A DNA stretch of 64,000 nucleotides from contig FMBT01000301.1 in NCBI GenBank assembly GCA_900095095.1, positions 186,001-250,000 of the forward strand, given 5' to 3'. Positions 17,661-64,000 of the stretch are shown here, in pieces; the stretch's first letter is position 1, and every line of letters starts with the position of its first letter. The position numbers were made by a program, and so were the translations under genes. Under the pieces are notes generated by a model. The model was not told the origin of the DNA, made no database searches, and saw only the letters and a program-made list of their open reading frames with translations. Origin of the DNA: Fragilariopsis cylindrus CCMP1102. Taxonomy: Eukaryota; Bacillariophyta; Bacillariophyceae; Bacillariales; Bacillariaceae.

Positions 17661-17864
17661 ATCATAATATCATCCTTGTTGCCTTCACCATCAATGTCTC
17701 CATTATGTGCGATGTGTATTGTACATACAACTAGATATCAATCAGGCATCATATAATTTTACTCACATTCCTGTCAAATTCAATTCTTTCCCTTCTTCCT
17801 ATATTTTTTGCTCTGCTATTATTCTACAATACAACCCATAGCAAATAAATTATCATTTGTCATA

Positions 17865-30502: not shown

Positions 30503-31924
30503 ATGAACAGTAATATTTGGCTCAGATCTGCTAGGGTTCTTGTTGGTGCACTTTTTATTCCATTCTCTTGGCAATTGATTGGTATTCCAGCCGCTTGGTT
30601 ATTGTTTGGTTACCCTATTGGTCGACTGATGATTGTATCAGTTGAAGATAGATTTCTATCTCCATCCCCTCATCCTGTTGTAATCCACTTCATTCATCTG
30701 ACATCGGGAGTATATTTTGGTACACGTATTATAGGTTTAATGTCATTTTATTATGCGTGTTTTTATTATGATCATGGAGAAAACGAAACAGCTTATATGC
30801 TTATAATTAGTCTTAATTCTATTTTAATAGTTTGTATGTATATTTTCCTATTATGTTATGGAATTTATTTTAATACAAATATTGAAAAGATTGTAGCAAA
30901 ATATGATAAAGAATTCAACAAAGAACGGATGGATAATAATGAAGAATACGATCATATTTCAAATTCTTATCAAATAATGAATAATAATATTTGGCTCAGA
31001 TATGCTTTGATTTTTTTTGTTTTACTTTTTATTCCAGTCGGTTGGCAATTGATTGGTATTGCAGTCGCTTGGTTATTGTTTGGTTACCCTATTGGTCGAC
31101 TGTGGTTTGTATCACATCAAGTTGAAGATAGATTGCTATCTCCATCCACTCATCCTGTTGTAATCCACTTCATTCATCTGACATCGGGAGTATATTTTGG
31201 TACACGCATTATAGGTTTAATATCTTTAATATCTTTAAATCATGATCATGAAGAAAACGTAACAGCTGGTCCTAAGCTTACAACTGTTGCTGGCTTTACT
31301 TTAGCAGGGTACATGCATATTTTCCTATTATGTTATATACTTTATTTTAATATAAATATAGAAAAGATTGTAGCAAAATATGACAAACAATTCAACAAAG
31401 AACGGAGAGGAAAAACAACGAACAGTAATATGTTGCTCAGATCTGCTGGGTTTATCTTTGGTGCATTTTTTATACTTTTTGGTTCAATTTTTATTCCATT
31501 CTCTTGGCAAATGTATGGTATCCCAGTCGCTTGGTTATTGTTTGGTTACCCTATTGGTCGACTGCTGATTGTATCAGTTGAAGATAGATTTCTATCTCCA
31601 TCCCCTCATCCTGTTGTAGTCCACTTCATTCATCTGACATCGGGAGTATATTTTGTTACACGCTTTATATGTTTTATGTTAGTTTACTATGCGGTTTTTT
31701 ATTATTATCATGGAGAAAACGATACAGCTTATATGCTTATACTTGGTGTACATTTTATTATAATAGGTTGCATGTATATTTTCCTATTATGTTATGGCCT
31801 TTATTTTAATTTAAATATTGAAGAGATTGTCGCAAAATATGACAAAGAATTCAATAAAGAACGGATGGATAATAATAAAGAATACGATCACAATCATGAA
31901 ATGGAAAAATTGGAATTATTGTAA
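30503..31924 (+). CDS. membrane protein made of three copies of one module
   Basis: A 473-residue intronless gene that I cannot assign to a family. Three homologous units start near residues 1, 159 and 306 (DNA 30503, 30977 and 31418). Each begins [SN]-N-[IM]-x-L-R-x-A and then a hydrophobic hairpin (F-I-P-F-S-W-Q-L-I-G-I-P) ending L-L-F-G-Y-P-I-G-R-L. A conserved loop follows (V-E-D-R-x-L-S-P-S-x-H-P-V-V), then I/V-H-F-I-H-L-T-S-G-V-Y-F-x-T-R, a further long helix, and a charged tail (K-I-V-A-K-Y-D-K-E-F-N-K-E-R). About four membrane segments per unit give some twelve in all. Unit 2 is the most diverged: it lacks a residue block before its last helix and has H-Q inserted before V-E-D-R. The invariant H-F-I-H and E-D-R residues in all three copies suggest a functional site. 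A transporter or channel is possible; no signature supports either. Confidence 0.7.
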   Translation: MNSNIWLRSARVLVGALFIPFSWQLIGIPAAWLLFGYPIGRLMIVSVEDRFLSPSPHPVVIHFIHLTSGVYFGTRIIGLMSFYYACFYYDHGENETAYMLIISLNSILIVCMYIFLLCYGIYFNTNIEKIVAKYDKEFNKERMDNNEEYDHISNSYQIMNNNIWLRYALIFFVLLFIPVGWQLIGIAVAWLLFGYPIGRLWFVSHQVEDRLLSPSTHPVVIHFIHLTSGVYFGTRIIGLISLISLNHDHEENVTAGPKLTTVAGFTLAGYMHIFLLCYILYFNINIEKIVAKYDKQFNKERRGKTTNSNMLLRSAGFIFGAFFILFGSIFIPFSWQMYGIPVAWLLFGYPIGRLLIVSVEDRFLSPSPHPVVVHFIHLTSGVYFVTRFICFMLVYYAVFYYYHGENDTAYMLILGVHFIIIGCMYIFLLCYGLYFNLNIEEIVAKYDKEFNKERMDNNKEYDHNHEMEKLELL

Positions 31925-38012: not shown

Positions 38013-39161
38013 TTAGCAGGATTCCTGTTCCGGAAATAATGGAATACGAGTCGTAATAATGGCATTGTTGAAATCATCTAATGTCATAGAACAAAAATTA
38101 GTTCGTCGACAGGTTGGACATGAATTCTGTTCAATGATGATATTCGTAGTACTAGTATTAGAGGTACTAGTGGTACTACGGTGTTTCTCTTCGTCGTCAC
38201 TGCTACTGCTACTGATACTTGTACTACTACTAATAGTGTCATCAGTGTTATCACTGTGCTCAGTTTCGTTTCCAGTTGCATCTTCAGTTGCATCGTCATC
38301 ATCATTCGTATTATTGCTTGTTGTTGTTATTGTTTTTTCTTTTGGTCGATGTTTTGTGGTGAGATAATCAATCATACAACCTTCATGATATGTATGTGGA
38401 CAATCCTTATTTTCGGACCAAACAATCACATCATTTACGGCAAGTTCTTCAAAGCAAATGATACAGGTACCATCATTTGTCGTAGTAGTAGTAGTAGGGA
38501 TAATACATTTTTGCGGTGGTAGTATTCTTTTTTTCTTCATTCTATTACTGCTACTGCTACTACTACTGCTACTGTTACTACAGCAGCTGTCACCAAGTTC
38601 GATATCTACAAATATCTCACTACTTTCTTCGTGATGATTACTAACGTCTCCACTTTCACTACTCGTGCTTGGCATGTCCTCCTTCTTTTTCTTCTTCTTC
38701 TTCTCGCTTCTAGTAGTAGTAATAAAATGATCTTTTGTTAATATGATTCTATTCCCTTTTGAATTGAAGACACTTCTGTATACTTCTTTTCTTTCTTTAG
38801 TATTTAATTGTAGCATTGGATTTACATTTACTACTGCTTGTTTTTGTTGTTCTTCTTCCATTCTTCTTCCTACTCCTTCTCTTATTATTTGGATGGATCT
38901 TGCACTACGTTGCTGCTGACATTTGTCGCGATATTTTTGTAATAAACAATTATCAAATAAAATAAACAGCAAGAATAGCGTGAACATAAACATAAGCATT
39001 AAGATAAATGGAATAGTGATAGTTTCTTCCTGCTGTGGATGTTGCTGTTGCTGTTGCTGTTGAGCGATGTTGTTGATGAGGGCCATAAAAGGATGATCAT
39101 CGTCGTTCATTCCTAATGATGATGTGATGGTGTTGTTGATGCTGCTGCTGCTGTTATTCAT
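38013..39161 (-). CDS. membrane RING-H2 protein, paralogue A
   Basis: A 382-residue intronless gene from the ATG at 39161. The N-terminus carries one membrane helix (I-L-M-L-M-F-M-F-T-L-F-L-L-F-I-L-F), then a basic region and K-G-N-R-I-I-L-T-K-D-H-F, which is shared with the paralogue. The C-terminal third is a RING-H2 domain: C-I-I-C, then C-P-H-T-Y-H-E-G-C, then C-P-T-C. All eight ligands (C3H2C3) are present. The loop between ligands six and seven is about 85 residues of Ser/Thr/Asp-rich sequence, longer than the usual 4-48. It probably acts as a membrane-anchored E3 ubiquitin ligase. It is diverged but clearly homologous to the plus-strand gene at 43772; the two flank the DGAT2 gene facing each other. 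Confidence 0.83.
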   Translation of the reverse strand: MNNSSSSINNTITSSLGMNDDDHPFMALINNIAQQQQQQQHPQQEETITIPFILMLMFMFTLFLLFILFDNCLLQKYRDKCQQQRSARSIQIIREGVGRRMEEEQQKQAVVNVNPMLQLNTKERKEVYRSVFNSKGNRIILTKDHFITTTRSEKKKKKKKEDMPSTSSESGDVSNHHEESSEIFVDIELGDSCCSNSSSSSSSSSNRMKKKRILPPQKCIIPTTTTTTNDGTCIICFEELAVNDVIVWSENKDCPHTYHEGCMIDYLTTKHRPKEKTITTTSNNTNDDDDATEDATGNETEHSDNTDDTISSSTSISSSSSDDEEKHRSTTSTSNTSTTNIIIEQNSCPTCRRTNFCSMTLDDFNNAIITTRIPLFPEQESC

Positions 39162-43771: not shown

Positions 43772-44935
43772 ATGAATCATATCAGTAGCATCATCAACAA
43801 CAACATCACATCATCAGGAATGAACGACGATGATCATTACGGCCAACAACAGCATCAAATATCATGGAAGGTATTCATTCCTGTTCCATTGTTTATATTA
43901 TTCGTTGTATCATTTGTTGTTCTTTTTTTGATTGATCAATGTCGACAACAACAACTTCAACAACAACACCGTGAAAGATCCCTAGTAAGAAGAGGAAGAA
44001 TGGAAGAAGAGGAAGCAAAAAACTCATCAGTAGCAAATCCAATGGTAAATTTAAGTACTAAGAGAAGAAAAGAAGTATACAAAAAAGTATTCAATTCAAA
44101 AGGGAATCGAATAGTATTAACCAAAGATCATTTCCACGTTAGTTATAGTACTAGTACTAGTACTAGTACTAGCAGTAGTAGAAGCGAGAGAAAGAAGAAG
44201 AAAAAAAATAGTTCAAGCAGTGGAGACGTTAGTAATCATCACGAAGACAGTGCAATATTTGTAGATGTCGAACTTGGTGGTAGTAGTTATGAAACTGACG
44301 AGATTACGATGCCAACAGCGGCTACAGGAATATCATCATCATCATCATCATCATCAATAAACGTGGAGCTCAACACGCGACCACAACAACAACAACAACA
44401 ACAACAACCGCTGGATATCCTTACTACAAATGATGGGTCATGTATTATATGCCTTGAAGATTTTGCCGTGGACGATGTTATTGTTTGGTCATCAGAAAAC
44501 AATAATGACTGTCCACACGTATATCATGAAGAATGTATGATAGACTATCTAACAACAAAACGTCGACCAGAGAAAACGATAACAACAAGCAATAGTACTA
44601 ATACAAATGGTGAGGATGCAACCGAAACTGAAACTGAGCACAGTGATTACACTAATAACACGAATGACACTAGTACAAATAGTAGCGATGGTGGTAGTGC
44701 CAGTGGTAGTGTCAATAGCAGCAACAGCAACGACGATGACGATGACGACGACGACGACCACGACCACGAAGAAGAGAAAAACAACACTACTACTACTACT
44801 ACTACCTCTAGTGCTATCATCATTGAACAGAATCCATGCCCAACATGTCGAAGGAATTTTTGTTCAATTACATTAGATGATTTTACCAACGCCATTATTA
44901 CTACTCGTGCTCCATTATTCATTGAAATTGAATGA
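43772..44935 (+). CDS. membrane RING-H2 protein, paralogue B
   Basis: A 387-residue intronless paralogue of the gene at 38013-39161 with the same order of parts. It has a single membrane helix near residue 32 (V-P-L-F-I-L-F-V-V-S-F-V-V-L-F), the shared K-G-N-R-I-V-L-T-K-D-H-F element, an S-x-S-G-D-V-S-N-H-H-E-x-S block and a C-terminal RING-H2. The ligands are C-I-I-C, C-P-H-V-Y-H-E-E-C and C-P-T-C. The inter-ligand loop is about 100 residues, rich in Asp, Thr and Asn, and differs in length and composition from that of paralogue A while the ligands and the following N-F-C-S-I-T-L-D-D-F tail are conserved. Likely a membrane-bound E3 ubiquitin ligase. The pair probably arose by inverted duplication. 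Confidence 0.83.
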   Translation: MNHISSIINNNITSSGMNDDDHYGQQQHQISWKVFIPVPLFILFVVSFVVLFLIDQCRQQQLQQQHRERSLVRRGRMEEEEAKNSSVANPMVNLSTKRRKEVYKKVFNSKGNRIVLTKDHFHVSYSTSTSTSTSSSRSERKKKKKNSSSSGDVSNHHEDSAIFVDVELGGSSYETDEITMPTAATGISSSSSSSSINVELNTRPQQQQQQQQPLDILTTNDGSCIICLEDFAVDDVIVWSSENNNDCPHVYHEECMIDYLTTKRRPEKTITTSNSTNTNGEDATETETEHSDYTNNTNDTSTNSSDGGSASGSVNSSNSNDDDDDDDDDHDHEEEKNNTTTTTTTSSAIIIEQNPCPTCRRNFCSITLDDFTNAIITTRAPLFIEIE

Positions 44936-47699: not shown

Positions 47700-50220
47700 T
47701 CTTAGTAAATTATGCTAACTTATTAATGTTTACTGTTGGCAGCAGAGTCACTAAAATTTAAGCAAAACTGCTGCTGCTTTATTAGAATTGTTCTGCTCTT
47801 CTTATAGGCTTTTGCGTATAAGCATTGAGGGAAGGGGCGATAACTATTATGTTATGTCAGACTAGCAGTGGATTACATGGATCCACTCCTGGCAAATGCT
47901 GGTTCTACCTAATATTGCTCCTGTTAATTTTAACACAAAACAAGAACTGCTGTTGTATTATAATTTGCTGAGCACTTACTTGTAAATTTCTGCATGGAAA
48001 GGATGCTGTCTAATAATATTGGCGATCACTTGACTTGTGGATCCACACACTCCTGATTAGAATTAACTGTATGTAGGGTTTCTGCTAACCAACAAACACT
48101 ACTACCTACTGCAGTTGTATATAGGATCAGCATTATTTGTATACCACTGGTACACCCACTCCTCCTGACGCATGCTTGCCTTAGCAATTACTACTGTCAA
48201 CTAAAGAATAATAATATGAAACAACAATATAAACTGCTGCTGTATAGAATTTTTGTCACACACTTCTTGTTATTAACTAACTACACCATGTGTGTAAAGG
48301 TTGTCCAATAATATTGGTATGCTGATTCTATCCATTGATGATAACCAAACAACACAATGAGAAAGAACAACAACAAGAACTGTTGCTGTGAACGATTATG
48401 TTGAGCATTTTTTGTGTAGACTATTTTGCATCTAAAACATTATAATGAGGCAAAGCACAACAACATTGGCATGGTATATTTCTCTGGGGCATGCTGATTA
48501 TATTTCTGTCAACCCAGAAATATGAAACAACAAACAGAAACTGCTGCTGTTTGGAAGCATCTGTTGTGCATTTTATACCACCAGACAGCAACAAGAACTG
48601 CTGCTGTTGCTTTGAGAGATTTAAATGTGTGTTTACTATAAGCTCTTCTTCATTTATAAAGGTTGGATGAACTCCAGGAGTAAATGATAGCAACAATAGT
48701 GGTGTAGTGTATTACTGGTGGATCACGTACTTGTTCTATCTATTTCTGTCAACCAAAAGATCTGAAACAACAACAAGAACTGCTACTACTGTGTGAACAT
48801 TTACTTGCTGTGAACCCCTTGTAGCCTCCTGCAATATTGGTGTATCACTGGTGGGTCCATTCCTCCTGAGGATGCACATGCAGGGTGTTGGGTTCTATAT
48901 CTTTCTATGAAACAAAAACAAGAAATGCTGCAGTGTTAGTTTTTGTTGTGCACTTCTTGTAAACTTTTGGTCCATCAATAGTGGGTCCACTGCTGCCTAA
49001 TAACATTGTGATACCCATTATGATGTAGGCTTTATCTTTTCCTAATAGTCTTCCTTTTGAAACAACAATAAGAACTTCTGCTGTGTGGGAATTTATTCTG
49101 CACTTACTACTGTAAACTTCTGTCATGCAGGTAAAGTTTGTACAAACAACCAATCAATAATGATATTGGTGGATCACTGTTGGACCCATTCCTAATGAAT
49201 GTCCATACAGATTCTACTTCTGTGAACCTACTACTTTTCTTACATTTTTACATATAAAGAGGTTTTCCAACAGTAATATAATATTAATGTATCATCACTG
49301 GCAGATAGTGCTCATGCAGGTTCTATTTTTCTTGTCAACCAAACAAAATGCAATACATAACACCAACACACAAACTTGCAGAACTGCTGATACTTTGTTA
49401 GAATTGGCTGCTGCACACTTACTTCCTGTACTATAAACCTCTCTGCATCTCTACTCCTGCCTGACCTGTTCCCATACAGGTCCTATCTTTTCTTGACAAC
49501 AGCAACAACAACGACAATATATTCGAAATAGTAATAACAAGAAACTCTGCTACTAAGTTGTATTGTTGTATCACTGATGATGGTGGGTCCACTCTGCTCC
49601 TGAAGCAAGTGCATGTGTACAATATGCTGGGTGGTTCTATGTCTGTCAATTTCAACAATGAGAGAAGTGCTGCAAAGTTAGAACTTATTAAGACATCTAC
49701 ACTTGGCTACAATGGAGAAAGATATCTGAGTTCCATTATTAACTGTGTTATATTTAGATTATGATGATCTCTATTGCTATTGTTACTTTGCCTCCATTTG
49801 ATGCTTTTGCTATTGAATGGTTGAGCTTGTGGAGTGATTCATGCGCCATGCGCGTGAGTCCCAACTTTGGGTAAGTGGAGCGCTAGCAACTCAATAGAAG
49901 TTACTGTTCACTTCTTGTACACTCCTCCATTGTCATGTTGTATTTAGGTAAATAGTAGCTACTGAAAGATCCACTACACTCACAAAAACAAACCCGTGGC
50001 TGGTTTTATTTCTGTCAACCAAACAATGTACAAAACAACAACAAGAATGAAGAATTATTTTCTATTCCTGCTACTATGCTAACCAAACAATATGGTAAAT
50101 GTAACAACAAAACAAGAAATACAGTTGCTGCTGCTAGCTGCTTTTTTAGAACCATTGTTGGTTGCACACTGACTACTTGCTTCTCTTTTGTAAACTTACT
50201 TTTCTGCATGTAAATGTTGC
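47700..50220. repeat. degenerate tandem-like repeat array (copy B)
   Basis: Around twelve or more diverged units recur at about 110-200 bp. The typical order within a unit is: ggtgtatcactggtggatcc, tcctcctga, gcatgctgattctatt, ctgtcaaccaaacaatatga, aacaacaacaagaactgctgctgtg, then ttgttgtgcacttcttgtaaacttctgcatg. Clear units lie near 48180-48260, 48330-48410, 48480-48570, 48720-48800, 48890-48975, 49030-49120 and 49310-49430. The array shares its boxes with the one at 9.0-10.3 kb. No open frame spans it. Confidence 0.7.
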
Positions 50221-50842
50221 ATTATCAGGGCAAAAGGAGAACAATAGATGGTATAGGTTCAATTATATCTATTATTTCTTCATGATGGAGAATACTGTAC
50301 AAATAGTACAGTACATACAGTCTTTCATCTTTCATCATAACTATCAGAAGATAAAGAAGCACCACATACCGTACAGTAACACAGAGCACTGTTGAAAGGT
50401 ACAAAAACAAATTACTCAGTCGTGGATGTGATGCGATGCGATGCATGTCCGGTGTGATTTTCATTAAAAAAAGCTAGACAGGCTCGATTATGCCGTTGTT
50501 ATTTTTTTGGAGGAACGAAACAACAACGTCAACGAACAGCAAGAAAGCAAAACAACAACGACAACGTCAACAATTACGGCAACAACAAGAACAACAATAG
50601 CAATTTCGAGAAAAATTAAAGCAAAAGAAACAAGAGACAGTAAGAGCAACAACAAGAACAGCAAGAGACAACAACAAAAGACAGCAACAGCATCAGCATC
50701 AGAATAGCAAAAGACAATAACTCTATTAAACTTGTACGAACAAAAACAAAATCCGAAACGGTTGTCAAAGAGAATTCAAAATAGCTACAGAAACAAAATT
50801 CAAAATTCAAAATTCAAAATTCAAAATCAATAATCAATAATC
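50221..50842. other. leader region of the CAP-H gene
   Basis: AT-rich DNA, then a CAACAA/GCAACA-rich purine stretch (50515-50710) and three or four copies of attcaaa (50787-50826) directly before the ATG. No separate gene supported. Confidence 0.5.
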
Positions 50843-53800
50843 ATGTCATTCATGATTCCTGAAGAAACAAGTTTTCATCATGACGGTAGTAGTGGTGGTG
50901 GACGACAACGAGGTATCCTATTAGCGGAGGATGATTACGAAAATGAAAATGAAAATAAAAGCGATGATGACGATGAAGAAGAAAATGAAAATGAAGATGA
51001 CTATAATCCAGACGACGATGGCGATGACGATGGTGAGAATTTTCATCCTAATCTGAGCAAGAAGAAAGAACAGGGAATGACGATAAAGATCAAAGATCGT
51101 CGTTCACTCATGAAGAAACAGGGAAGTAGTCGTCGCCGTCGTCGTTCTTCTGCACGTTTTTTGAAAATAGGCGCTAATGATAATGATGATAATGAGGATG
51201 ATTCATCCTCTAGAGCTTTAACTAGCGGAACTGGCGGAACTGTTGATAATTTAAGTGAAGTCTATCGGAATGCGATTCGTATGAATGCCGAGAATCGAAT
51301 TAATGCAACCAATTCTTGGAATATTAATTTAATTGATCATTTAGATCGATTTGTCGCACCGGAATTACGGACCGGATCGAATAGTGGTGGAAGTGGTTTA
51401 AATGCTAGTAAACGTGGATTTAACAACAGTACTCGTAATGTTACGAACAATGTCATGGATAGTACGATGGATTCCACAATGACAACAGGAGGACAATCTA
51501 ATAGTGCAACAGGTGTTAATTTTACAAAAGCAAGTTGTACATTAGATGCATCTGTGAAAATTTATTCTTATCGTGTGGATGATGTACATTTAACATCCTA
51601 CAAGGTATTAGCTAATTTAAATCGTACTGAAACCAGCAATAGCAGCAATACTACTACTTCTAAGAAGAAAACTGGAAGTAATGGAGGAGAATCGATGGAC
51701 GGTGGCGAAGATAACGGAGGACGAAGTAGTAATAAATCAAGAAGTAATACCAGCTCTGCTAATACATTGGAACATAACACCTGTAAGTGCTACTTCACTT
51801 TTCTACACTCGTAACATAACGTGACGTGACATGTTGCTCTATCTATGTTTGTTCTGTTCTATACATACGAGTTTTCAGTCTTGATTTACTTCTCTCTAAC
51901 CCCCTTACGATGTTCTAACTTGCTTCCTTGATTCCATTTCCTTCCATTCCACTTTACTCCACTCTTTTTCCTTTCAAATCAACTCAACTCATATCATACC
52001 AAACAAAAACACATACACACAAAAAAAGCCAATATTAATATTCACAAACTAGATGCGGCATTCGATATTGATCCATTATTTCATAAAATGTCCAAAAACT
52101 TTGATGAAGGTGGTGCAAAAGGTTTATTACTGGCTAATCTGAGTGTTGGATATGGTGGATGTAAAATTATCTTTGATTCCACATTAGACGATGATGATGA
52201 AGTTGAAAATGATAATGAAGAAAATGATCACGAAGAACAACAACAACTGAAGAAGAACAAGAACGATAGCAGTATCAGGTTGGAAGATGTTCCCGAAGAT
52301 GTCCTACCTCAAGAAGTACCACCAGCAGCAGCAGCAGCAGTATCATTATCCGACAATACTACTGTTGTTGATGTTACTAGTTTAGTAACAAAATTAGAAT
52401 CTCTTTTGATTTCATCAGGAGTAGGAGGAGGATCATCATCATCAGGAATCGATGGAATCAATAATACTACTACCAGTGATAATAATAATAATAATAATAA
52501 TACAATTGGTAGTATGTCACTTGTTCCACAACTTGCATCATTACGTGATCAATTTGCTGATCTAAAAAATGATGGTTTCGTTGATGACATTGGTATATCG
52601 GTACGTATACGTATATATGTATTTACATGACATAACATGTCTTTTGTTGTACAAGTTATTACTGTTCTTTCGAAAAACACTATATTCCTCGATATCTATT
52701 TTATTTCCTACCTAACACCCTATGCCTTCGCACATCCCTAAACCAAATTCTTTCCCTTACAACTACTATCAAATACTATATGATATCGATCACAGTCGAA
52801 ACGGTATGCAAGTAGTCACGAGGAGGAAGCTGAGGCAGATAAGTCCATTCACCTCGAAGCAATCGAACGTAGTCGTGCCTCTCTGGCAGATTTTGGACGA
52901 TCTCTCAATGCACGTGACGATGATGATGATGATGATGGTGGTGGATTTGATTTCGGCGGTGGTGGCGATGGTGATGATGACTTTGGTGATTTACACGATG
53001 GGGATCATCGATTTTCTTCATCGAGTTTTCAAGCTGGACGTACTTCATTCTCATCGCTTGGTAGTCACAATGGTACCAATGGCAACGGTGACAACAGTAG
53101 CAACACCAATAATCCCAATAGGGCAGATGGTGCCGACAATAATCGTCCATCATTCTTGCAAACACTACCGGTAGGATTTTCTCAAGCAACTGTATTATTG
53201 GATGCAATCGCATCCGGGAATATTTCAACAATGGAATCAACTAATCATTATGAATATTTTAACAGTCAAGCATTAGCAAATTTATCATCAGGTAATTTAT
53301 GGGCGGGTGCAGAACATTGGAAGAAAATGCGCCGTAAGACTAATGGTGGTACCGTTACCGGTACTGGTGGTACTAGTCAAGACGATACTGTTACTGGCGG
53401 TAAAGATCCTGCCAAAAGTAAGAAGGGACGGAAGGTAAAATCTAAGGCATTATCATCAATTTCATCGGGACGCGTTGCTGTTTTACTTAACACACCGATT
53501 GATAATTTAGATGAACTATTACTTAAGAAACCATCCCCACCGAAGAAGACAGGTCGCGGTAAGGCTGATCCACTTCAATTAACAAAAGCAATGAAAACTA
53601 AATACGGGAAGAATGATAATTTATTGCCGATGGATGCTGGAATTGATGTCAAAGAATTTACTACATTATTTGGACGTCCCAAATCAAATCTTATGGATTT
53701 AGCAAAAGCGAAACGTGATGCAGCGCTACTAGCACCAGGAGGTACCAATACAAGATCAACCAAGGTGGTTGGATTTTCTGGTGTCGAAACTTGGGGTGAG

Positions 53801-54382
53801 CATGGTGCTGGTGATAATGATTCGTATGGCGATAATGATGATGGAGCAGGATTTAACTTTGGTGGTGGCGACGATGATGATTATGGTGATAATGATAATC
53901 CAAACGAATTTGTTGTTCCAGAATTAGATGATGTACGTAAGGTCAATAAAATTAAAATTGGATATGCTAAGATAGCAAAGAAGGTTGATGTGAAACGTTT
54001 AAAACGTGATTTATGGACAGAACTCGAACAGACATTTGCAAACAATGCTATCAACAAGAACGAAGAAAATGAGGATGCGAAGAGTCAAGACGACGACGAT
54101 GCTTTATCTACAGCATCTACCGTATCCGATCCTGATCCTGTCCTTGCCGGTACTTCTGGTGGTGACGAGAACAATAACGACGAGGATAGTGCTGCTAAGA
54201 CTACTACTGCTACAGCAACAACTCTTTCCTTCCAAGATACTGTTCGTGATATGCAAATGAATGAATCCCAATCCGATGTGACGTTACCATTTTACTTCAT
54301 CTGTATTCTTCATTTGTGTAATGAAAAGGGATTAGCATTGGAATCATCTGGATTAGATGATTTTATTATTCATAGTTCATAG
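50843..54382 (+). CDS. CAPH: condensin complex subunit 2 (CAP-H/Barren)
   Basis: This is the kleisin that bridges the SMC2-SMC4 heads of condensin I in mitotic chromosome compaction. Three exons: 50843-51782, 52053-52600 and 52796-54382. The introns are 270 and 195 nt, with GTAAGT...CTAG and GTACGT...CACAG borders. The joined frame is 1,024 residues. Barren-family landmarks are an acidic/Arg N-terminus, then L-S-E-V-Y-R-N-A-I-R-M-N-A-E-N-R-I-N, S-W-N-I-N-L-I-D-H-L, A-S-V-K-I-Y-S-Y-R-V-D, D-I-D-P-L-F-H-K-M-S-K-N-F-D-E-G-G-A, L-L-A-N-L-S-V, the mid-region F-F/N-S-Q-A-L-A-N-L-S-S-G-N-L-W-A-G-A-E-H-W and a C-terminal winged-helix end with L-P-F-Y-F-I-C-I-L-H-L-C-N-E-K-G-L. Low-complexity Asp/Gly and Asn inserts make it longer than most. 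The third exon has no ATG near its open start, consistent with splicing. Confidence 0.93.
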
Positions 54383-55471
54383 GAAAAAAGAAATCTGAAC
54401 AAAGCAAAATTGATTATTAATGCATGGGAAATAATATAAGAGAAGAAAAGTGAATGGGATCAACATTAGTGTATACGTGTATAAAAAGAAAAACAAGTCT
54501 TGGTACGAACATAAGCAGCAACAACAACACAAGGCTACTATACAAGAAGAAAGTGGAATCGATTCGAAGAAACTTACCAGTATGTTACTACATACGTGAT
54601 CGTAATTCCACCAAGAAAGAAAGAAATAGTAATATAATAATTATTCAGTACAAGTAATAATATCCTCAATATATATATTGATATCGATCACCTTTCCGCA
54701 CTGCTGTTGTATTTATCTGTTTTGTTGTAGACTGCACCTGTTGGTCTGGTCTCGACCACAGGTCAAAATTTTAAAACATATTTCTTCTGCGTATACAAAT
54801 GAGCCTATATGCTCCATTTGAAGCGAAATAAAAACGGGACTCTCAGATATGAAGTGAATAAAAGAATTACGCGTCGCAGTACAATAGAAATTTTTCAATT
54901 TGTTCCTCTCTCTATATATACTATACATACAGGGGTCATAAATATTTTTGGCCCCTGTATATAGTTACTCTAGTTAGTTTGCTGGTAGAGGAATTAATCC
55001 TATAGAGATTTGGGGGAGGGGCATGTTTACTGTTGCTTATCCGAGCTACAATAATCTAGTTAAGTTGATGAGTACTTATCGTGTACTGTACAAGATTTTG
55101 ATACCCGCTTAGTTTTTGCAGATAGATTTCTATCGCGCGCGTTGCCCTCGCGATCATGTATCTACAGTATCTCACTACAAATCTCGTCATCTCGTCAATT
55201 GCAGATTACGCACAGTAACACATCAACACAAAGATGATATTATCGACAATGCATGCATGATAAGGAAGAACGAACATGTATGTAATGCTATTTGTTGATC
55301 ACTCAAGTCAACGAATGCCTATTATTAACAGTAACGAAGATCGATGAGAAGCAAAGGCTTTCCTCCTGCTTTAATAAATACGCCGTCGTATTAACTGAGT
55401 AGCGACGATCGAGACGTGTACTATTATTATATACTGTTGTTCTATTCCATCTTCTTCTTTTTCTTTTCATT
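54383..55471. other. intergenic, no gene seen
   Basis: 3' flank of CAP-H and leader of the small basic gene. Nothing else recognised. Confidence 0.5.
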
Positions 55472-55864
55472 ATGGGTATATGTTTTGGTAAGCCGTCGAT
55501 GATAGCATCTCGTTGTAAGGAAGCCGATCAGTATGCGAGACGGAAGAAAGATAACTTTATAGATCAAGGATTAGAAAAGGTACGAAAAGATACAATCCAA
55601 CAAAAGAAAAAATTACGACATCACGTGGATGATCCAGATACAATTTCAAAACGTAATTTAAAGCGAAACAATTTAAAATACAACAATAAAGATAGAACTG
55701 ATTTCAAAGGTAACAGTGGCGGCAGCGGCAGAGGAGGAGGATTCACACAAGATACAATTTCAGAACAACGAAACAAATTAAAACACGTAAGAAAGAAATT
55801 AAAAGACAATGATAAACCTATAGTAGTACCTACGGAGTACACGAGCAAGATAAGAAGGCAGTAA
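55472..55864 (+). CDS. small basic protein with N-terminal lipidation-like motif
   Basis: A 130-residue intronless gene from the ATG at 55472. It starts M-G-I-C-F-G-K-P-S: Gly2 plus Cys4 is the layout of N-myristoylated and palmitoylated proteins, so peripheral membrane attachment is plausible. The rest is Lys/Arg/Asn-rich and helical, with two related elements (D-P-D-T-I-S-K-R-N-L-K-R and T-Q-D-T-I-S-E-Q-R-N-K-L-K). No family recognised. The last 78 codons lie inside the 921-bp direct repeat; a second, headless copy sits at 60665-60899 beyond the retrotransposon. The ancestral gene was therefore hit by the insertion at the D-D-P-D codons but remains intact in the left copy. Confidence 0.65.
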   Translation: MGICFGKPSMIASRCKEADQYARRKKDNFIDQGLEKVRKDTIQQKKKLRHHVDDPDTISKRNLKRNNLKYNNKDRTDFKGNSGGSGRGGGFTQDTISEQRNKLKHVRKKLKDNDKPIVVPTEYTSKIRRQ

Positions 55865-56550
55865 TTCTTTTAATATCCATCTTTCTCTATTGAATAGACG
55901 TAGATCTCTCACTAGCTACGGAATGTATAGGGTAGTTTTATTTATTCTTGTAAGGTTTGAGAGGAAGACCGTATTCTAACTGGGTGTTGCGCGAGAATAT
56001 AGAATGTGCGTGTTTTTGTGTCTTTTTTTCGATTACCTTTCACGACACATCTTTTCATCTCATCAAGATCTTTTCTAACTTACAAAGAAAAGTATGGTGT
56101 ACTGTACAGTATGCATGGTGACACCAAAAGTTTTTTTTCTTTCGGAATTCAATCGTACAATTGTGTACGACGTCCATATACCATATTGTATACAAAGTAT
56201 TCCTTTATTCTGCCCGAGGGTTACTGTAGTAGAGTATCATCGAGTCAAGTCAAGTCAAGTCCGTATGGACAACATAGTCACACCTACTTTGAGCGATCAG
56301 TCAAGAAGAAGCGGGTTCAAGTACCGTATGGACAGACATAGTCACACCTACTTTGAGCGATTAGTCTAGAAGAAGCGAGTTTAAGTAGTACCGGACTGCA
56401 TGTACTATTACACAAGATAGAATAAATCATAATTAATGGTTGTCAGCGCATTTTTTGTTGCGGCTCCACCTATTTTGGTAGCGTCATTTATCGTAAGTGC
56501 GTCTAACATACACGATGTAGGGTGGATAAGTATTGGACGTCTTCCTATTT
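55630..56550 (+). repeat. 921-bp direct repeat, left copy (putative target-site duplication)
   Basis: Matches 60665-61585 at a constant offset of 5,035 bp; I see no difference at the points I compared. It starts tgatccagatac inside the small basic gene and ends ggacgtcttcctattt, where the retrotransposon poly(T) (its poly(A) on the other strand) begins. It carries the 3' part of the small gene and the first ~115 bp of a second short open frame. Confidence 0.93.
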
Positions 56551-59500
56551 TTTTTTTTTTTTTAATAGTATAAAATATGTACTAAATAATTATCTTAATC
56601 TAGCTAAAGGTTGTAATATGAATGGTGTTCTGCTCAAAGGTGGTCCCCGTGGATAGGATGAGAGGGTTAGTGGGTTCATTTTGTGCTTGGTGTTGGGATA
56701 CCTCCAATGTAACCACCATGAAATATTTCTTAGTAGTCAGGGGAATTGAGAGTGGAGTTGTGAAGGTGGAGGTGGTCAGTGTGTGGATATGAATAGATGG
56801 TGGTGCTAGCGGACAATTCTATAGAGGCCGGCGCCTGCACCGTCCTCCCATTGAATTTGTCTGCTCATTGTTTTGAATGGTATTCGAGAACCTCTCAGAC
56901 ATTGATTGGAAGCTCGCGCACATGCAATGCTGATACGTGAGCGGACTATTCCACATGTAACTGAATAAGGCTTATTCCATTTATCTGCTAAACGTTTTGA
57001 TAATTGCTTTAGCACATTGCTGGCCTCGTAACCAATCAGGCCGTCCACAGAGACAACAAAAGGGGTAAAGGCTCGACGTTGGAGTAGACATTGATCGAGG
57101 TATTTCTTCTTTTTCTCCTTCTCTTGTGACTGTAGGACTTTTTTTGGGTCTCTTGTTCGATAGGATTTGGCATCTGTGTCTGTTATTCTGACATCGATGA
57201 TAGCGTCCATTCCATTGTCCCAAAAGCCCTTGATCAACAAATCTCCTCGGTCTCCGTTTGTGTCGATGGCTGTGATGGTGGTGGGAGAATCCATAATAGA
57301 GGCGCTGGGGTTGATTTCAGGTTCAGCACGTATTGCAGATTCTCTCAAGGCCATCTTTGCTAAAGATGCAAGCTCAAGATTGAGTTCATCATGACGTCTA
57401 ATGATTAGGCCCCCGGATTTGCATTGGAGCGCGTGCCCTACATCAAATGCAGAGCCACAGCCATCACATTTGGCAGGGAGATTGTGTGGCACTTTTTGGT
57501 ATCTCAATCGAATAGCATCAATAAATTCGTCACATCCGAGAATGTTACCGTTGATGTGATTAGGGATAGTAGTAAGCCAAAGACCGGTTTCCCCAGCACG
57601 CTTGATTGCTCTTGTTGTGCTTGGTTGACCTGCAGCAGCTGGAGGGAGAGCTGCAAGGAGGTTGGTCAATGAAGAATCATTTTCGGTTTGTCGGAGCTCT
57701 CGGGACGCGGAGAGAGAGGATTGACAGGTATCTCTGTGGTCCTGTAAACTGAAGTTGATCTTGCCTTGAACAGCCAACAGAAGATGAGAACTCATAAGAG
57801 TGCTATTCTTGTAGTTGGTTGCGGAGGAGGTAACTGGATTCGGGAGAGCAAGCCCAGCATGTTTGACTGGCAGAGCGGTCAAAAGTCTGAGCTTGTCATC
57901 CATAGTGGATGGGGGGTCTCCAAATAGGGCGGGGAGCAAATTATTGGTGAGTTCATCCTCCAGTGGTTGGAAGAGGTCATCAATGCCAGGAATAACACGT
58001 TGAGTAAAACTCCACTTGTGCTGCAAACACTTGGTAATGCCTGTGTAAGCTGCGTGTGGATACTTCAATCTTGCTACTGCTGCTAGCTCCTTGGTGCCGT
58101 GGATCCAGTCGGCGATTTTTGTTGATACGTATTCATCTCGACTTGTGGTATCTCCAATGAAACCACCCAGGAAACGACTTCCTGTGCTGATCTTGAAACC
58201 TAGGCCATGGGTCTCGTTGAAGAAGTGGTGAGCTGCAACCACATTGTCGGGATGGGTGATGAGGATACTCTTAGATGCATTAGGAAAGTACCCAAAATCA
58301 GGTCCCATTCGTAATAAATCTTGAAAAAGGCGTAGTATTTCATCAAATTTGCCAGCTGCGCTAGCATCATCTGCATACCAAGATTGAACTAATAATACAT
58401 TTAATTCTTTCAGTTTGCGGATGAGTGGTAGGAGAGCGACACCATATGCTATCATCGCAAATGGGTCGCCCTGTGTGACACCTTCTTTAGAAAAGAAAGT
58501 GAAGGGTTTCCCGCCTGGATTCCGTACCACTAGTAGGCTGTGGTGCCGATAGCAGTTGAAGGCGAATCGAGCTCCAGCAGGCCATTCGTGGCGGATCGTC
58601 CATAACATGTTGATGCGTGAGACCTCATTGAATGCATTGTCTGCGTCAATAAGTACGAAACCTGTGTTTTCCTCAGATTCCATCTCCCTCCACATAGCCG
58701 ATAGTCCATGTATGGCACCATCAACTCCGGCTCTTAGTCCGGCACAGAGCTGGTCTGACCCACAACAGTCAGTAGCATAAGACATAGAGACTGCTAGAAC
58801 AAGTTTGGCGAAGAAACGACGCCATGTATCACCTATACCGACTGGTCGAATTCCGGGCATTTTGTCTAGCGCAATAAGCCTATTTGCTAGCATGGCACGG
58901 TACGAGGCCCAGGGGGGGTGCTCGTTGGCAAGCCATCTACCAAATTTTGCACAAACATTGCGCAGTCGTTGGCTTGCTTGACCGTGATGGAGGAGGAGGT
59001 GCTTGAGTTGTATTGAATCAACTCCACTCAGACCTGCACCACCACTGAGCTTTCCAGCGACTATCTCAACTGTATCAGCTGTAATTTCAAGTGTTGGAAG
59101 TTCCGGGACGGACTCGTAGGCAGGCATGGCTGTGGGACCAGGATCACGCATGCTGGGATGCTTATCCTGTAGCACTCTTGATACAGTATGGCCTGATTTC
59201 TCATCGACGTCATAAGGATAAAGGATGCCCCCTCCTTCGCGGTCAGTGATGTAGTTGACGGCTGATTGGAGATGTCCACGCATGAGTTTACTTGAGTAAA
59301 CTTTAGCTCTGTGCGCGGGGGTTGTATCTCCTCTTGCTTTGGATTGTTTGGCAATAAGATCTCGATGTGTGTCTTCAACAAGATACTTGAATTTGCCTTC
59401 CTTCCAAGCGGTGAGTCGGCTAAGAAGACGGCGTTTAACGTCGGCATTCTTAGTCACTCCGTGTCTCCGTTGTAGAACCACTACTGGAAACACGAGTAGC

Positions 59501-60664
59501 TTCTCCATATTACACTTGCCATTCATGATTGCCTCAAATAAGTTTGAATATTCATTCGTTATATCCTTACCCAGTTTTCCCTTAGGGCAGTCATAGAGAG
59601 ATTGGTTGTGAGGTATAAGGCGACGAAAGTAACCCTGCCAGAGTTGATCTTGAGAGCTGCTAATAAGTCCGCTGAGATGGGAGCCGGGGTTGTCATGGAC
59701 ATGGTCTCCATATACTTCATCTAACATTTTATTTGCAGCAGAGATTTCTGCACCGGGAAGGTCGCTTCGTGGATCGACTGTGTAAACACGGGGAGGTGGG
59801 CGATTATTACTACCATTGCCATCGGTATTGTTAATATTATTGGTGTTGCTATTGTTACTGCCACTATTATTATTATTATTATTATTATTAATATTACTTG
59901 CAAGATTGTCTCCAGTAGTGTTATTAGTAGTAGTAGTAGTAGTAGTAGTGTTGGTAGCAGTAGTAGCAGTCGCTGCGGTTGCCGTAGTTGTAGCAGTGGC
60001 AGCGGTGGCAGCAGTAGCAGTACCAATAGTATTAGTATTTGACGGTGGGTTTGGAGGTGCTAAATCATCAGTACCAAATTTTAGTCGTCTATTAATGGTG
60101 ATGTTTGAGCTATCAGTATCATCATCATCATTATCCGAAAGTGGACTTGAATTTGGATTTTGGTTTGTTTTGGGGTTCGACTTTCCAGCGTTATTCTTCT
60201 TCTTGTTCTTCTTTTTGTTCTTATAAGGATTTGTGATTTTAACAGCTGCCGGGGGCAGTTTCAAATTTATCTTATTAGAACCATCATTTGTATTATCATT
60301 ATTTTTAATATTATTAATCCTATTAGTATTATTATTTTTATTATTATTATTTTTGGATAAATTTTTTGATGTTGCAGTAGGTAGAGTAGAATCCTTTTTC
60401 TTATCGTTAGTTAATGGGACAGGTGACGGTGGTGAAGATGTCGCAGCATTCCAAGGAAGTGGAGCCATTAATTCTTTATTATGAAAAGAATTTGAACAGC
60501 CACAATCAACTTCTTCACAGGAAGAACAAAGAAGTCCAACTTTTTTACAGCTGCAATCTTCTTTACAACGAGATCCGGCTGGACATGTACAGCAGCGGGG
60601 GTCGTATATTGATTCTAACGATTTTGATTTCGGGTTGAGTTTGGTATTGCCTTCAGTATTAGAT
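56551..60664 (-). mobile_element. full-length-looking non-LTR retrotransposon, RLE type
   Basis: A 4.1-kb insertion between the two 921-bp repeats, in minus orientation. Its 3' end is a run of 13 to 16 A (T run at 56548-56563, three T ambiguous with the target), preceded by about 240 bp of 3' untranslated sequence after the stop at 56806. Its 5' end is at 60664, directly against the repeat. It encodes one long protein with reverse transcriptase, a Cys/His knuckle and a restriction-like endonuclease. There are no LTRs, gag, integrase or RNase H. This is the layout of the early-branching R2/NeSL/Hero-type superfamilies, but I cannot assign a clade. The intact frame and identical flanks indicate recent insertion. 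Confidence 0.85.
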
Positions 60665-60684
60665 TGATCCAGATACAATTTCAA
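56806..60684 (-). CDS. reverse transcriptase / restriction-like endonuclease polyprotein
   Basis: An uninterrupted frame of 1,292 codons, counted from the TTG at 60684, which is already in the flanking repeat. The first ATG inside the element is codon 73 (60468). Codons 31-63 hold a Cys cluster (C-x-C-x5-C-x3-C-x-C-x6-C-x2-C-x4-C-x-C) like a tesmin/CXC DNA-binding motif. It lies before any ATG, so initiation is non-AUG, in host sequence, or the element is slightly 5'-truncated. An Asn/Thr-rich linker follows. The palm has motif A (D-A-D-N-A-F, about 678), motif B (G-V-T-Q-G-D-P) and motif C (W-Y-A-D-D-A, about 768-773). Near the C-terminus come a C-x2-C-x7-H-x3-C knuckle (about 1071) and R-G-D-L-L-I with I-I-D-V-R-I (about 1145), matching a PD-(D/E)xK-like nuclease. 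The enzyme would drive target-primed reverse transcription. No stops or frameshifts. Confidence 0.9.
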   Translation of the reverse strand: MKLYLDQSNTEGNTKLNPKSKSLESIYDPRCCTCPAGSRCKEDCSCKKVGLLCSSCEEVDCGCSNSFHNKELMAPLPWNAATSSPPSPVPLTNDKKKDSTLPTATSKNLSKNNNNKNNNTNRINNIKNNDNTNDGSNKINLKLPPAAVKITNPYKNKKKNKKKNNAGKSNPKTNQNPNSSPLSDNDDDDTDSSNITINRRLKFGTDDLAPPNPPSNTNTIGTATAATAATATTTATAATATTATNTTTTTTTTNNTTGDNLASNINNNNNNNNSGSNNSNTNNINNTDGNGSNNRPPPRVYTVDPRSDLPGAEISAANKMLDEVYGDHVHDNPGSHLSGLISSSQDQLWQGYFRRLIPHNQSLYDCPKGKLGKDITNEYSNLFEAIMNGKCNMEKLLVFPVVVLQRRHGVTKNADVKRRLLSRLTAWKEGKFKYLVEDTHRDLIAKQSKARGDTTPAHRAKVYSSKLMRGHLQSAVNYITDREGGGILYPYDVDEKSGHTVSRVLQDKHPSMRDPGPTAMPAYESVPELPTLEITADTVEIVAGKLSGGAGLSGVDSIQLKHLLLHHGQASQRLRNVCAKFGRWLANEHPPWASYRAMLANRLIALDKMPGIRPVGIGDTWRRFFAKLVLAVSMSYATDCCGSDQLCAGLRAGVDGAIHGLSAMWREMESEENTGFVLIDADNAFNEVSRINMLWTIRHEWPAGARFAFNCYRHHSLLVVRNPGGKPFTFFSKEGVTQGDPFAMIAYGVALLPLIRKLKELNVLLVQSWYADDASAAGKFDEILRLFQDLLRMGPDFGYFPNASKSILITHPDNVVAAHHFFNETHGLGFKISTGSRFLGGFIGDTTSRDEYVSTKIADWIHGTKELAAVARLKYPHAAYTGITKCLQHKWSFTQRVIPGIDDLFQPLEDELTNNLLPALFGDPPSTMDDKLRLLTALPVKHAGLALPNPVTSSATNYKNSTLMSSHLLLAVQGKINFSLQDHRDTCQSSLSASRELRQTENDSSLTNLLAALPPAAAGQPSTTRAIKRAGETGLWLTTIPNHINGNILGCDEFIDAIRLRYQKVPHNLPAKCDGCGSAFDVGHALQCKSGGLIIRRHDELNLELASLAKMALRESAIRAEPEINPSASIMDSPTTITAIDTNGDRGDLLIKGFWDNGMDAIIDVRITDTDAKSYRTRDPKKVLQSQEKEKKKKYLDQCLLQRRAFTPFVVSVDGLIGYEASNVLKQLSKRLADKWNKPYSVTCGIVRSRISIACARASNQCLRGSRIPFKTMSRQIQWEDGAGAGLYRIVR

Positions 60685-61585
60685 AACGTAATTTAAAGCG
60701 AAACAATTTAAAATACAACAATAAAGATAGAACTGATTTCAAAGGTAACAGTGGCGGCAGCGGCAGAGGAGGAGGATTCACACAAGATACAATTTCAGAA
60801 CAACGAAACAAATTAAAACACGTAAGAAAGAAATTAAAAGACAATGATAAACCTATAGTAGTACCTACGGAGTACACGAGCAAGATAAGAAGGCAGTAAT
60901 TCTTTTAATATCCATCTTTCTCTATTGAATAGACGTAGATCTCTCACTAGCTACGGAATGTATAGGGTAGTTTTATTTATTCTTGTAAGGTTTGAGAGGA
61001 AGACCGTATTCTAACTGGGTGTTGCGCGAGAATATAGAATGTGCGTGTTTTTGTGTCTTTTTTTCGATTACCTTTCACGACACATCTTTTCATCTCATCA
61101 AGATCTTTTCTAACTTACAAAGAAAAGTATGGTGTACTGTACAGTATGCATGGTGACACCAAAAGTTTTTTTTCTTTCGGAATTCAATCGTACAATTGTG
61201 TACGACGTCCATATACCATATTGTATACAAAGTATTCCTTTATTCTGCCCGAGGGTTACTGTAGTAGAGTATCATCGAGTCAAGTCAAGTCAAGTCCGTA
61301 TGGACAACATAGTCACACCTACTTTGAGCGATCAGTCAAGAAGAAGCGGGTTCAAGTACCGTATGGACAGACATAGTCACACCTACTTTGAGCGATTAGT
61401 CTAGAAGAAGCGAGTTTAAGTAGTACCGGACTGCATGTACTATTACACAAGATAGAATAAATCATAATTAATGGTTGTCAGCGCATTTTTTGTTGCGGCT
61501 CCACCTATTTTGGTAGCGTCATTTATCGTAAGTGCGTCTAACATACACGATGTAGGGTGGATAAGTATTGGACGTCTTCCTATTT
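60665..61585 (+). repeat. 921-bp direct repeat, right copy
   Basis: The partner of 55630-56550. It includes the headless 3' part of the small basic gene (60665-60899), with no promoter or start. Unlike the left copy it continues into unique sequence (attggtgtcggtattg) instead of poly(T), so this side preserves the original right flank. Its last 83 bp (61503-61585) are also the start of the next tandem duplication. Confidence 0.93.
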
Positions 61586-61803
61586 ATTGGTGTCGGTATT
61601 GTCGTCGTCGATCCTTTGATTGCTGTTCTACTAGTAACAATAATGCTGACGATAACGATTATGATGAAGATGATGATGACGACGACGACGACAACGACAA
61701 CGATAGTAGTAGTAATAATAATGTTTACGATGATGATGCTGAGTATATGGCTGATGCAGTATTGAATGATGTTGTTAGAATCTCATCATTTATCTTTTCA
61801 TAA
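61471..61803 (+). CDS. possible short acidic protein, copy 1
   Basis: A 110-codon frame from an ATG. It has a hydrophobic N-terminus (F-F-V-A-A-P-P-I-L-V-A-S-F-I-V-S-A) that could be a signal peptide, a Cys/Arg cluster (W-C-R-Y-C-R-R-R-S-F-D-C-C) and an Asp-rich tail. No family recognised. The frame is cut off by the retrotransposon in the left 921-bp repeat and repeated in the downstream tandem copy, so it may be part of a longer multi-exon gene or non-coding. Confidence 0.35.
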   Translation: MVVSAFFVAAPPILVASFIVSASNIHDVGWISIGRLPIYWCRYCRRRSFDCCSTSNNNADDNDYDEDDDDDDDDNDNDSSSNNNVYDDDAEYMADAVLNDVVRISSFIFS

Positions 61804-62651
61804 GAGTAATAAGCATGCAAGAAGCAACATTTTATTTTTGTTGCTTTGTGTCCCCCCCCCCCCCCCCCCCCCCGACAAACAAACAATAGTTTAGAAAGTA
61901 TTCACAATAGCTATATAATTATCGGTTTTCGTCGGCAAAAATATATCGAAGGAAGGAAGAAAATAGAAGAAAAAGAAGTCGATGATAAAGTAATAACACA
62001 TTCAAATCCGCAACAACTTTCTTAGTCAAAATAAATTAAGGATCTTGTCGTTGGTCGAATTACCTGGATTAAATTGAATTGAATTGAATTGAATTGAATT
62101 GAATCAAGTCGAATCATCATGATCCATGCGTTGTCTCTCTGATTATCGTGTAGAAGAGGAAATAGATTGCGAATCGGATGGACTTAAGGTAGTATTTATA
62201 TTTTCCATTTTAAGAAACAACGATGTGGTAGCGCCATCTTGTTCTACCAAAAAAAAAGGACAATACATTTAGACTGGGATGACGATGACTGTGGAACGAA
62301 ATACTACCTATTTCTAACGACATACAGTAGTTCTTTTGATGGTGTTGATGATGCTGTCAACTTGGGATCTCTATAAAACATAAGCGGTCCGTGAAGAATG
62401 ATCGAATCAGTGTCGGTCTTTGTTCTTTTATGTGTATCTCATATAGTTGAACACACATCAGATTCAAATCACAAAGCTTTTTTTAATTGTGCTGAAATGA
62501 GATCTAATAAGCATATGAGCGTCAATCCGCTAGTTGAAACAGGAAGAATTCAATAATTGAAGCCACTACTGTTATAATATTCAACATATTGTCTTGTTAT
62601 GGAAGAATGTAATATATGAGTTAATACAATATCTCACTTCTTCTGGCATCA
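61503..62651 (+). repeat. 1.15-kb tandem duplication, unit 1
   Basis: Starts acctattttggtagcg and ends ggcatca. Unit 2 follows directly. Between the units I see an a/g change in the GAC-rich run, an a/t change in tatata(a/t)ttatcgg and a C-run length of 22 (61852-61873) versus 18. A gaatt pentamer run (62075-62099) and a further possible small frame (atgcgttgtctctct, 62126) are present in both. Confidence 0.93.
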
Positions 62652-63797
62652 ACCTATTTTGGTAGCGTCATTTATCGTAAGTGCGTCTAACATACACGAT
62701 GTAGGGTGGATAAGTATTGGACGTCTTCCTATTTATTGGTGTCGGTATTGTCGTCGTCGATCCTTTGATTGCTGTTCTACTAGTAACAATAATGCTGACG
62801 ATAACGATTATGATGAAGATGATGATGACGACGACGACGACGACGACAACGATAGTAGTAGTAATAATAATGTTTACGATGATGATGCTGAGTATATGGC
62901 TGATGCAGTATTGAATGATGTTGTTAGAATCTCATCATTTATCTTTTCATAAGAGTAATAAGCATGCAAGAAGCAACATTTTATTTTTGTTGCTTTGTGT
63001 CCCCCCCCCCCCCCCCCCGACAAACAAACAATAGTTTAGAAAGTATTCACAATAGCTATATATTTATCGGTTTTCGTCGGCAAAAATATATCGAAGGAAG
63101 GAAGAAAATAGAAGAAAAAGAAGTCGATGATAAAGTAATAACACATTCAAATCCGCAACAACTTTCTTAGTCAAAATAAATTAAGGATCTTGTCGTTGGT
63201 CGAATTACCTGGATTAAATTGAATTGAATTGAATTGAATTGAATTGAATCAAGTCGAATCATCATGATCCATGCGTTGTCTCTCTGATTATCGTGTAGAA
63301 GAGGAAATAGATTGCGAATCGGATGGACTTAAGGTAGTATTTATATTTTCCATTTTAAGAAACAACGATGTGGTAGCGCCATCTTGTTCTACCAAAAAAA
63401 AAGGACAATACATTTAGACTGGGATGACGATGACTGTGGAACGAAATACTACCTATTTCTAACGACATACAGTAGTTCTTTTGATGGTGTTGATGATGCT
63501 GTCAACTTGGGATCTCTATAAAACATAAGCGGTCCGTGAAGAATGATCGAATCAGTGTCGGTCTTTGTTCTTTTATGTGTATCTCATATAGTTGAACACA
63601 CATCAGATTCAAATCACAAAGCTTTTTTTAATTGTGCTGAAATGAGATCTAATAAGCATATGAGCGTCAATCCGCTAGTTGAAACAGGAAGAATTCAATA
63701 ATTGAAGCCACTACTGTTATAATATTCAACATATTGTCTTGTTATGGAAGAATGTAATATATGAGTTAATACAATATCTCACTTCTTCTGGCATCAA
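62652..63797 (+). repeat. 1.15-kb tandem duplication, unit 2
   Basis: Second copy of the unit, with an offset of 1,149 bp before the C run and 1,145 bp after it. It ends ggcatcaa, where the sequence passes to unique atttttttgatac. It has the 3' part of the short acidic frame (62659-62952) but lacks its first codons, since the upstream atggttgtcagcgc is outside the duplicated unit. Confidence 0.93.
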
Positions 63798-64000
63798 TTT
63801 TTTTGATACTAATCTAATATTCGGTAGATCGTGGTCGCGCGATGAAACGCCCTGCTCCGATCTCGCAACGTGTTGGCGTTTCCACGGTCACATTCTTCGT
63901 TTCGGTTCTAAAGAGGCATGCTGCTATCGTAGTTTATTGTTGTTGAAAACAAGTCTCATAATCTCGCCAGTGTCGCTTTTCAATTTAAAATAATTCAACA
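63798..64000. other. right edge of window, no gene seen
   Basis: Unique sequence beyond the tandem duplication. An open frame (63739-63993) runs toward the edge but has no recognisable content. Confidence 0.4.

Follow-up and report, generated by a model that had tools for sequence, protein, structure and literature searches.

We analyzed a stretch of 64,000 nucleotides from Fragilariopsis cylindrus CCMP1102 (contig FMBT01000301.1, forward-strand positions 186,001–250,000), referred to below as the window; unless a contig is named, all positions are counted from its first base. Several frames lie outside the locus that is the subject of this study. A condensin subunit 2 (Cnd2) frame (53156–54382, plus strand, E 6e-34) is located upstream of the insertion target, and the window also encodes a member of the diacylglycerol acyltransferase family. 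A long open frame (17808–22685, plus strand) contains internal repeats approximately 870 bp apart that are 95.7% alike and ends in a proline/serine-rich tail. The frame at 30503–31924 (plus strand) is membrane-protein-like and apparently consists of three tandem repeats, 80–90% alike in pieces. Two further frames, 38013–39161 (minus strand) and 43772–44935 (plus strand), are present in inverted orientation, have a Cys/His-rich end and are about 76% alike in parts. The locus of interest comprises the following features:

55630–56550, plus strand: left copy of a 921-bp duplication, identical to 60665–61585 at all positions
56551–60664, minus strand: 5'-truncated non-LTR retrotransposon of 4,114 bp, with its poly(A) end at 56551 and a 95% identical sister on contig C91
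56551–56563, plus strand: poly(T), representing the poly(A) tail of the element (the T run is 16 bases long if three T of the target are included)
56806–60684, minus strand: open frame of 1,292 residues coding for a reverse transcriptase, its first codons lying inside the host duplication
60665–60668, plus strand: TGAT microhomology at the 5' junction, common to the target (55630–55633) and the C91 element
60665–61585, plus strand: right copy of the 921-bp duplication, identical to the left copy
61503–62651, plus strand: unit 1 (1,149 bp) of a tandem duplication, its first 83 bp being the end of the right 921-bp copy
62652 to about 63797, plus strand: unit 2 of the tandem duplication, with two substitutions and a C run four bases shorter than in unit 1

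An initial, sequence-only reading of the window had placed a 4.1-kb element with a poly(A) end exactly between two 921-bp copies of host sequence. Pairwise comparison bears this out: the copies agree at 921 of 921 bases, their coordinates and the offset of 5,035 bp are right, and the match does not extend beyond the 921 bp on either side of either copy. The element itself occupies the minus strand, with the poly(T) at its left end. The junctions had also been described as clean. The copies do abut the element exactly, but the TGAT of the 5' junction and a TTT at the 3' junction can be assigned to either element or target, so that the true length of the duplication is 914–921 bp. The target also borders on the 1,149-bp tandem duplication, which the initial reading had passed over. 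When the complete assembly of the organism (67.9 Mb, 818 contigs) was searched, the only full-length matches to the 921 bp were the two copies in the window. The three other matches were the last 86 bp of the segment, found in the adjoining tandem repeat, and fragments of 51 and 38 bp. Apart from the duplication, the target of the insertion is thus single in the assembly, and chance is excluded as the source of the identity.

The whole 1,292-residue frame of the element produced no Pfam match at E values up to 1; the reverse transcriptase was detected in the piece 58000–59100 (RVT_1, E 0.00018), below the cut-off used by Pfam. Three of the seven PDB matches to the frame are R2 retrotransposon proteins (E 0.0016–0.002 over 166–210 residues). 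The other four are PPR repeat proteins (E 0.001–0.006), which we set aside as many weak matches to one short stretch. The C-terminal part has a CX2CX7HX4C cluster at residue 1073, followed by RGD at 1146 and DV at 1164, which resemble the motifs of R2-like restriction-like endonucleases; this region had no meaningful match in Pfam or PDB. The N-terminal 500-residue frame of the C91 copy had no Pfam match either, and so none to an AP-type endonuclease, but Pfam barely detects even the reverse transcriptase. Judged by these sequence features, the element likely belongs to the R2-like class of LINEs. R2 proper, with one fixed rDNA target, was rejected: the flanks of the five insertions that we compared are unrelated, and the region 50000–64000 of the window contains no Rfam match.

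The five insertions derive from a search of the assembly with the element, which returned 26 rows. Seven of these correspond to five insertions (the one in the window and four sisters) with junctions that could be read, while the remaining 19, all of them short pieces of 110 bp or less, were left out. A protein search (18 rows) added no further insertion to those measured. The C91 copy can be aligned to the window element over the whole 4,114 bp, and its open frame continues beyond the point at which the window copy stops, showing that the latter is 5'-truncated. The coding region of the C91 copy is split over two overlapping frames. We place its 5' end at about C91:229781, some 870 bp beyond the stop point of the window copy, because the similarity of three other loci ends at the same base. 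Two sisters are themselves truncated: the C534 copy (C534:5180–6908), which is 97% identical to the element, and the C587 copy (C587:60499–61027, 529 bp), which is 96–97% identical. The copies on C411, C534 and C587 have a common 3' end and differing 5' stops, i.e. variable 5' truncation. The C354 copy is older (81–91% identity in pieces) and lacks a terminal T run; the T runs at C91 and C587 are 29 and 33 bases long.

Target-site duplications at the sisters are of quite another size. They measure 10 bp at C534, 0–1 bp at C587 and 14 bp at C354, and none was found at the junctions of the C91 insertion, versus 914–921 bp in the window. The sisters occupy unrelated sites, so the end structure of these elements varies from one insertion to another. 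A family-wide habit of making long duplications, of the fixed kind seen in R9, is therefore rejected. Short duplications in other family members had been named in the sequence-only reading as evidence that would count against a giant duplication in the window. Short or absent duplications are indeed what the sisters have, and they make the window event a one-off (one of five insertions measured) and no family trait, rather than unreal. The C534 insertion has an apparent empty allele on C709, which is not clean: approximately 14 additional bases adjoin the site, and larger differences follow at a greater distance. The C587 insertion likewise has an apparent empty allele on C86. The family seems to be polymorphic and recently active. 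For the C91 site, a search for the other allele returned only the site itself and short repeat matches among the best 40 of 244 candidates scored. For the window locus we used the 3,630-bp left flank, the 921 bp and the 2,415-bp right flank as queries and found no empty allele in the assembly (best 40 of 123 candidates scored in one search).

The 5' junction ties the duplication to the insertion. At the stop point, C91 reads TGATTATTATT and the window reads TGATCCAG, the latter being host target. The TGAT that the two have in common lies at the edge of the duplication, so the cDNA end was joined at its exact left edge. The coincidence of this edge with the joining point makes it more likely that the duplication arose as the element inserted than that the element entered a tandem repeat already present. 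An overlap of at least 4 bp is expected at 1.8% of random junctions, and TGAT could be such a chance overlap. No microhomology was found at the 5' junctions compared in the truncated sisters C534 and C587.

The simplest account of these data is a retrotransposon with a target-site duplication of 921 bp. The duplication is present in the assembly and is probably a true target-site duplication resulting from one event. We consider it somewhat more probable than even that this was one round of target-primed reverse transcription (TPRT) with a distal second-strand break, 921 bp away. In favor of a single event are the exact 921-bp flanks having no copy outside the locus and the truncation together with TGAT at the edge. 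Against it, no empty allele of the locus turned up in the assembly, 0.9 kb is far outside the range of the other four insertions measured, and the 1,149-bp tandem duplication close by may be a sign of a more extensive rearrangement. As for the hallmarks of TPRT, the poly(A) tail is found at one junction, and a duplication of the usual length (about 5–30 bp) is absent.

In such an event, a nick in the plus strand following CCTATTT (right copy, 61585|61586) would supply the 3' end that primes reverse transcription from the poly(A) tail. The cDNA would stop growing after approximately 4.1 kb, at the edge of the ATT/AAT microsatellite of the element, leaving a 5'-truncated copy. By means of TGAT, the cDNA end would then pair with the minus strand at a point 921 bp leftward. 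The second strand would be broken there instead of some 10–20 bp from the first nick, and fill-in would put the 921 bp on both sides of the element. The distal break was probably incidental, either a host nick or the outcome of a failed normal second cut, since the measured sister insertions lack it.

A possible, though unlikely, variant is a compound replicative event that would account for the 921-bp and the 1,149-bp duplications together. The cDNA end would switch template back by 921 bp via TGAT, either to the sister chromatid or to the same molecule, copy the target, and then switch back again by 1,149 bp. The tandem duplication starts only 82 bp from the insertion nick and, with two substitutions and a homopolymer length difference between its units, roughly matches the young 921-bp copies in age. 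Scans of 125 kb and another 94 kb for duplications of 300 bp or more with 99% or higher identity yielded no others besides this one and the 921-bp pair. The 94 kb came from 24 loci, of which 21 span only about 3 kb and had little power. The rough chance of a breakpoint falling this near the nick is 0.15–0.26%, but the density used in this estimate rests on that single duplication. Moreover, the overlap at the switch point of the 1,149-bp duplication is 1 bp only. One of the two substitutions lies in a GAC repeat and the other outside repeats, and together with the difference in the C run they allow for an older, separate duplication. By sequence alone, a distal second nick is not separable from replicative template switching.

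It is improbable that the structure is an assembly artefact, in which two haplotypes or two read overlaps were misjoined around the element. The organism does appear to be heterozygous, with both alleles apparently present in the assembly for C587/C86 and C534/C709, and a haplotype join was among the alternatives initially suggested. However, these apparent alleles differ from each other. The C587/C86 pair is 95.5% identical over 1,320 aligned bases and 97.5% over 357, and the C534/C709 pair is 81–94% identical in pieces (93.9% over the longest). Overall, they differ by approximately 2.5–6% over the longest aligned pieces and by more in the shorter gapped ones, while the 921-bp copies are 100% identical. 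If the local divergence matches that of the apparent alleles, the probability of zero differences in 921 bp is about 1e-10 or less. Under this assumption, the identity of the copies points to a recent event or to homogenization and disfavors a haplotype misjoin. Alternatively, C86 and C709 may represent paralogs and not alleles. In addition, both junctions of the element resemble real LINE junctions.

It is very improbable that the 921 bp had already been duplicated in tandem and that the element then entered at the joint, another of the initial suggestions. The genome does make kilobase-scale tandem duplications, one of them adjoining the locus. Yet the element would have had to hit the joint by chance within a few bases, without leaving an ordinary short duplication and with TGAT falling on the same base. 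Neither the zero differences between the copies nor the failure to find an element-free 921-bp tandem elsewhere in this assembly is in line with such a history. Two other readings were rejected: a later duplication around the inserted element would require a second copy of the element and its exact loss, and 5' transduction of host sequence is contradicted by the right copy running on into the right flank, which makes it the target itself.

In the standard model, a target-site duplication results when the second strand is broken at a distance from the first nick (PMC2881922, PMC2666801), and blunt ends and deletions have also been described for TPRT insertions (PMC2881922). Long-read surveys of human insertions give median duplications of 21 bp (PMC12350158) and 13 bp (PMC12016303), the second defining duplications as 5–25 bp, so that long ones were undetectable. 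A giant target-site duplication, exceptional as it was at first thought to be, is nevertheless not without precedent (PMC5223499). Of 58 de novo L1 insertions counted in human cells with deficient repair, 47 (4/7, 21/23 and 22/28) were accompanied by duplications of more than 100 bp, 18 of those exceeding 1 kb. The median was 1,495 bp in cells deficient in nucleotide excision repair (NER) versus 14 bp in complemented cells (PMC5223499). Lengths in NER-deficient cells reached several kilobases, for which the authors propose a distal unrelated nick; duplications above 100 bp never made up more than 10% in HeLa cells, and 5–30 bp is named as the usual length (PMC5223499). As in the window, the insertions in XPA-, XPC- or XPD-deficient cells mostly have A tails and duplications of hundreds to thousands of base pairs, other events being short. 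Those were engineered L1 insertions in cultured repair-deficient cells (PMC5223499), whereas the window contains a naturally inserted element of a different LINE type. Human L1, mainly in repair-deficient cells, is a good precedent from another LINE for a long duplication.

Closer relatives provide shorter examples. Among R2-like LINEs, duplications of 10–20 bp are general, and the 126-bp stagger of R9 from bdelloid rotifers is cited as distant (PMC6895275); in our limited literature search, confined to parts of the sources, we found no duplication longer than 126 bp for this class. R9 resembles the window element in being an R2-like LINE with a longer-than-usual duplication. It differs in that, judging by the title of the original report on R9, this is a feature of an rDNA-specific element, whereas here 921 bp were duplicated at one of five insertions and in a target without an Rfam match. 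Microhomology of one to five bases occurs at most 5'-truncated R2 junctions (PMC2718515). Drosophila R2 and R1 are thus comparable in their 5' junctions, and the portions of that report considered here describe no kilobase-scale duplication.

Of all steps in the LINE cycle, the completion of insertion, with its second-strand break and 5' joining, is understood least. The natural 0.9-kb duplication, taken together with the apparent empty alleles of two sisters, suggests that in this LINE the second break is uncoupled from the first and that LINEs are able to duplicate host DNA on a kilobase scale. The locus is of interest as a naturally occurring case from a LINE other than L1 and for its possible link with the adjoining 1,149-bp duplication, which presents a testable case for replication-coupled completion. 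If the compound event did take place, one retrotransposition would have built two overlapping host duplications.
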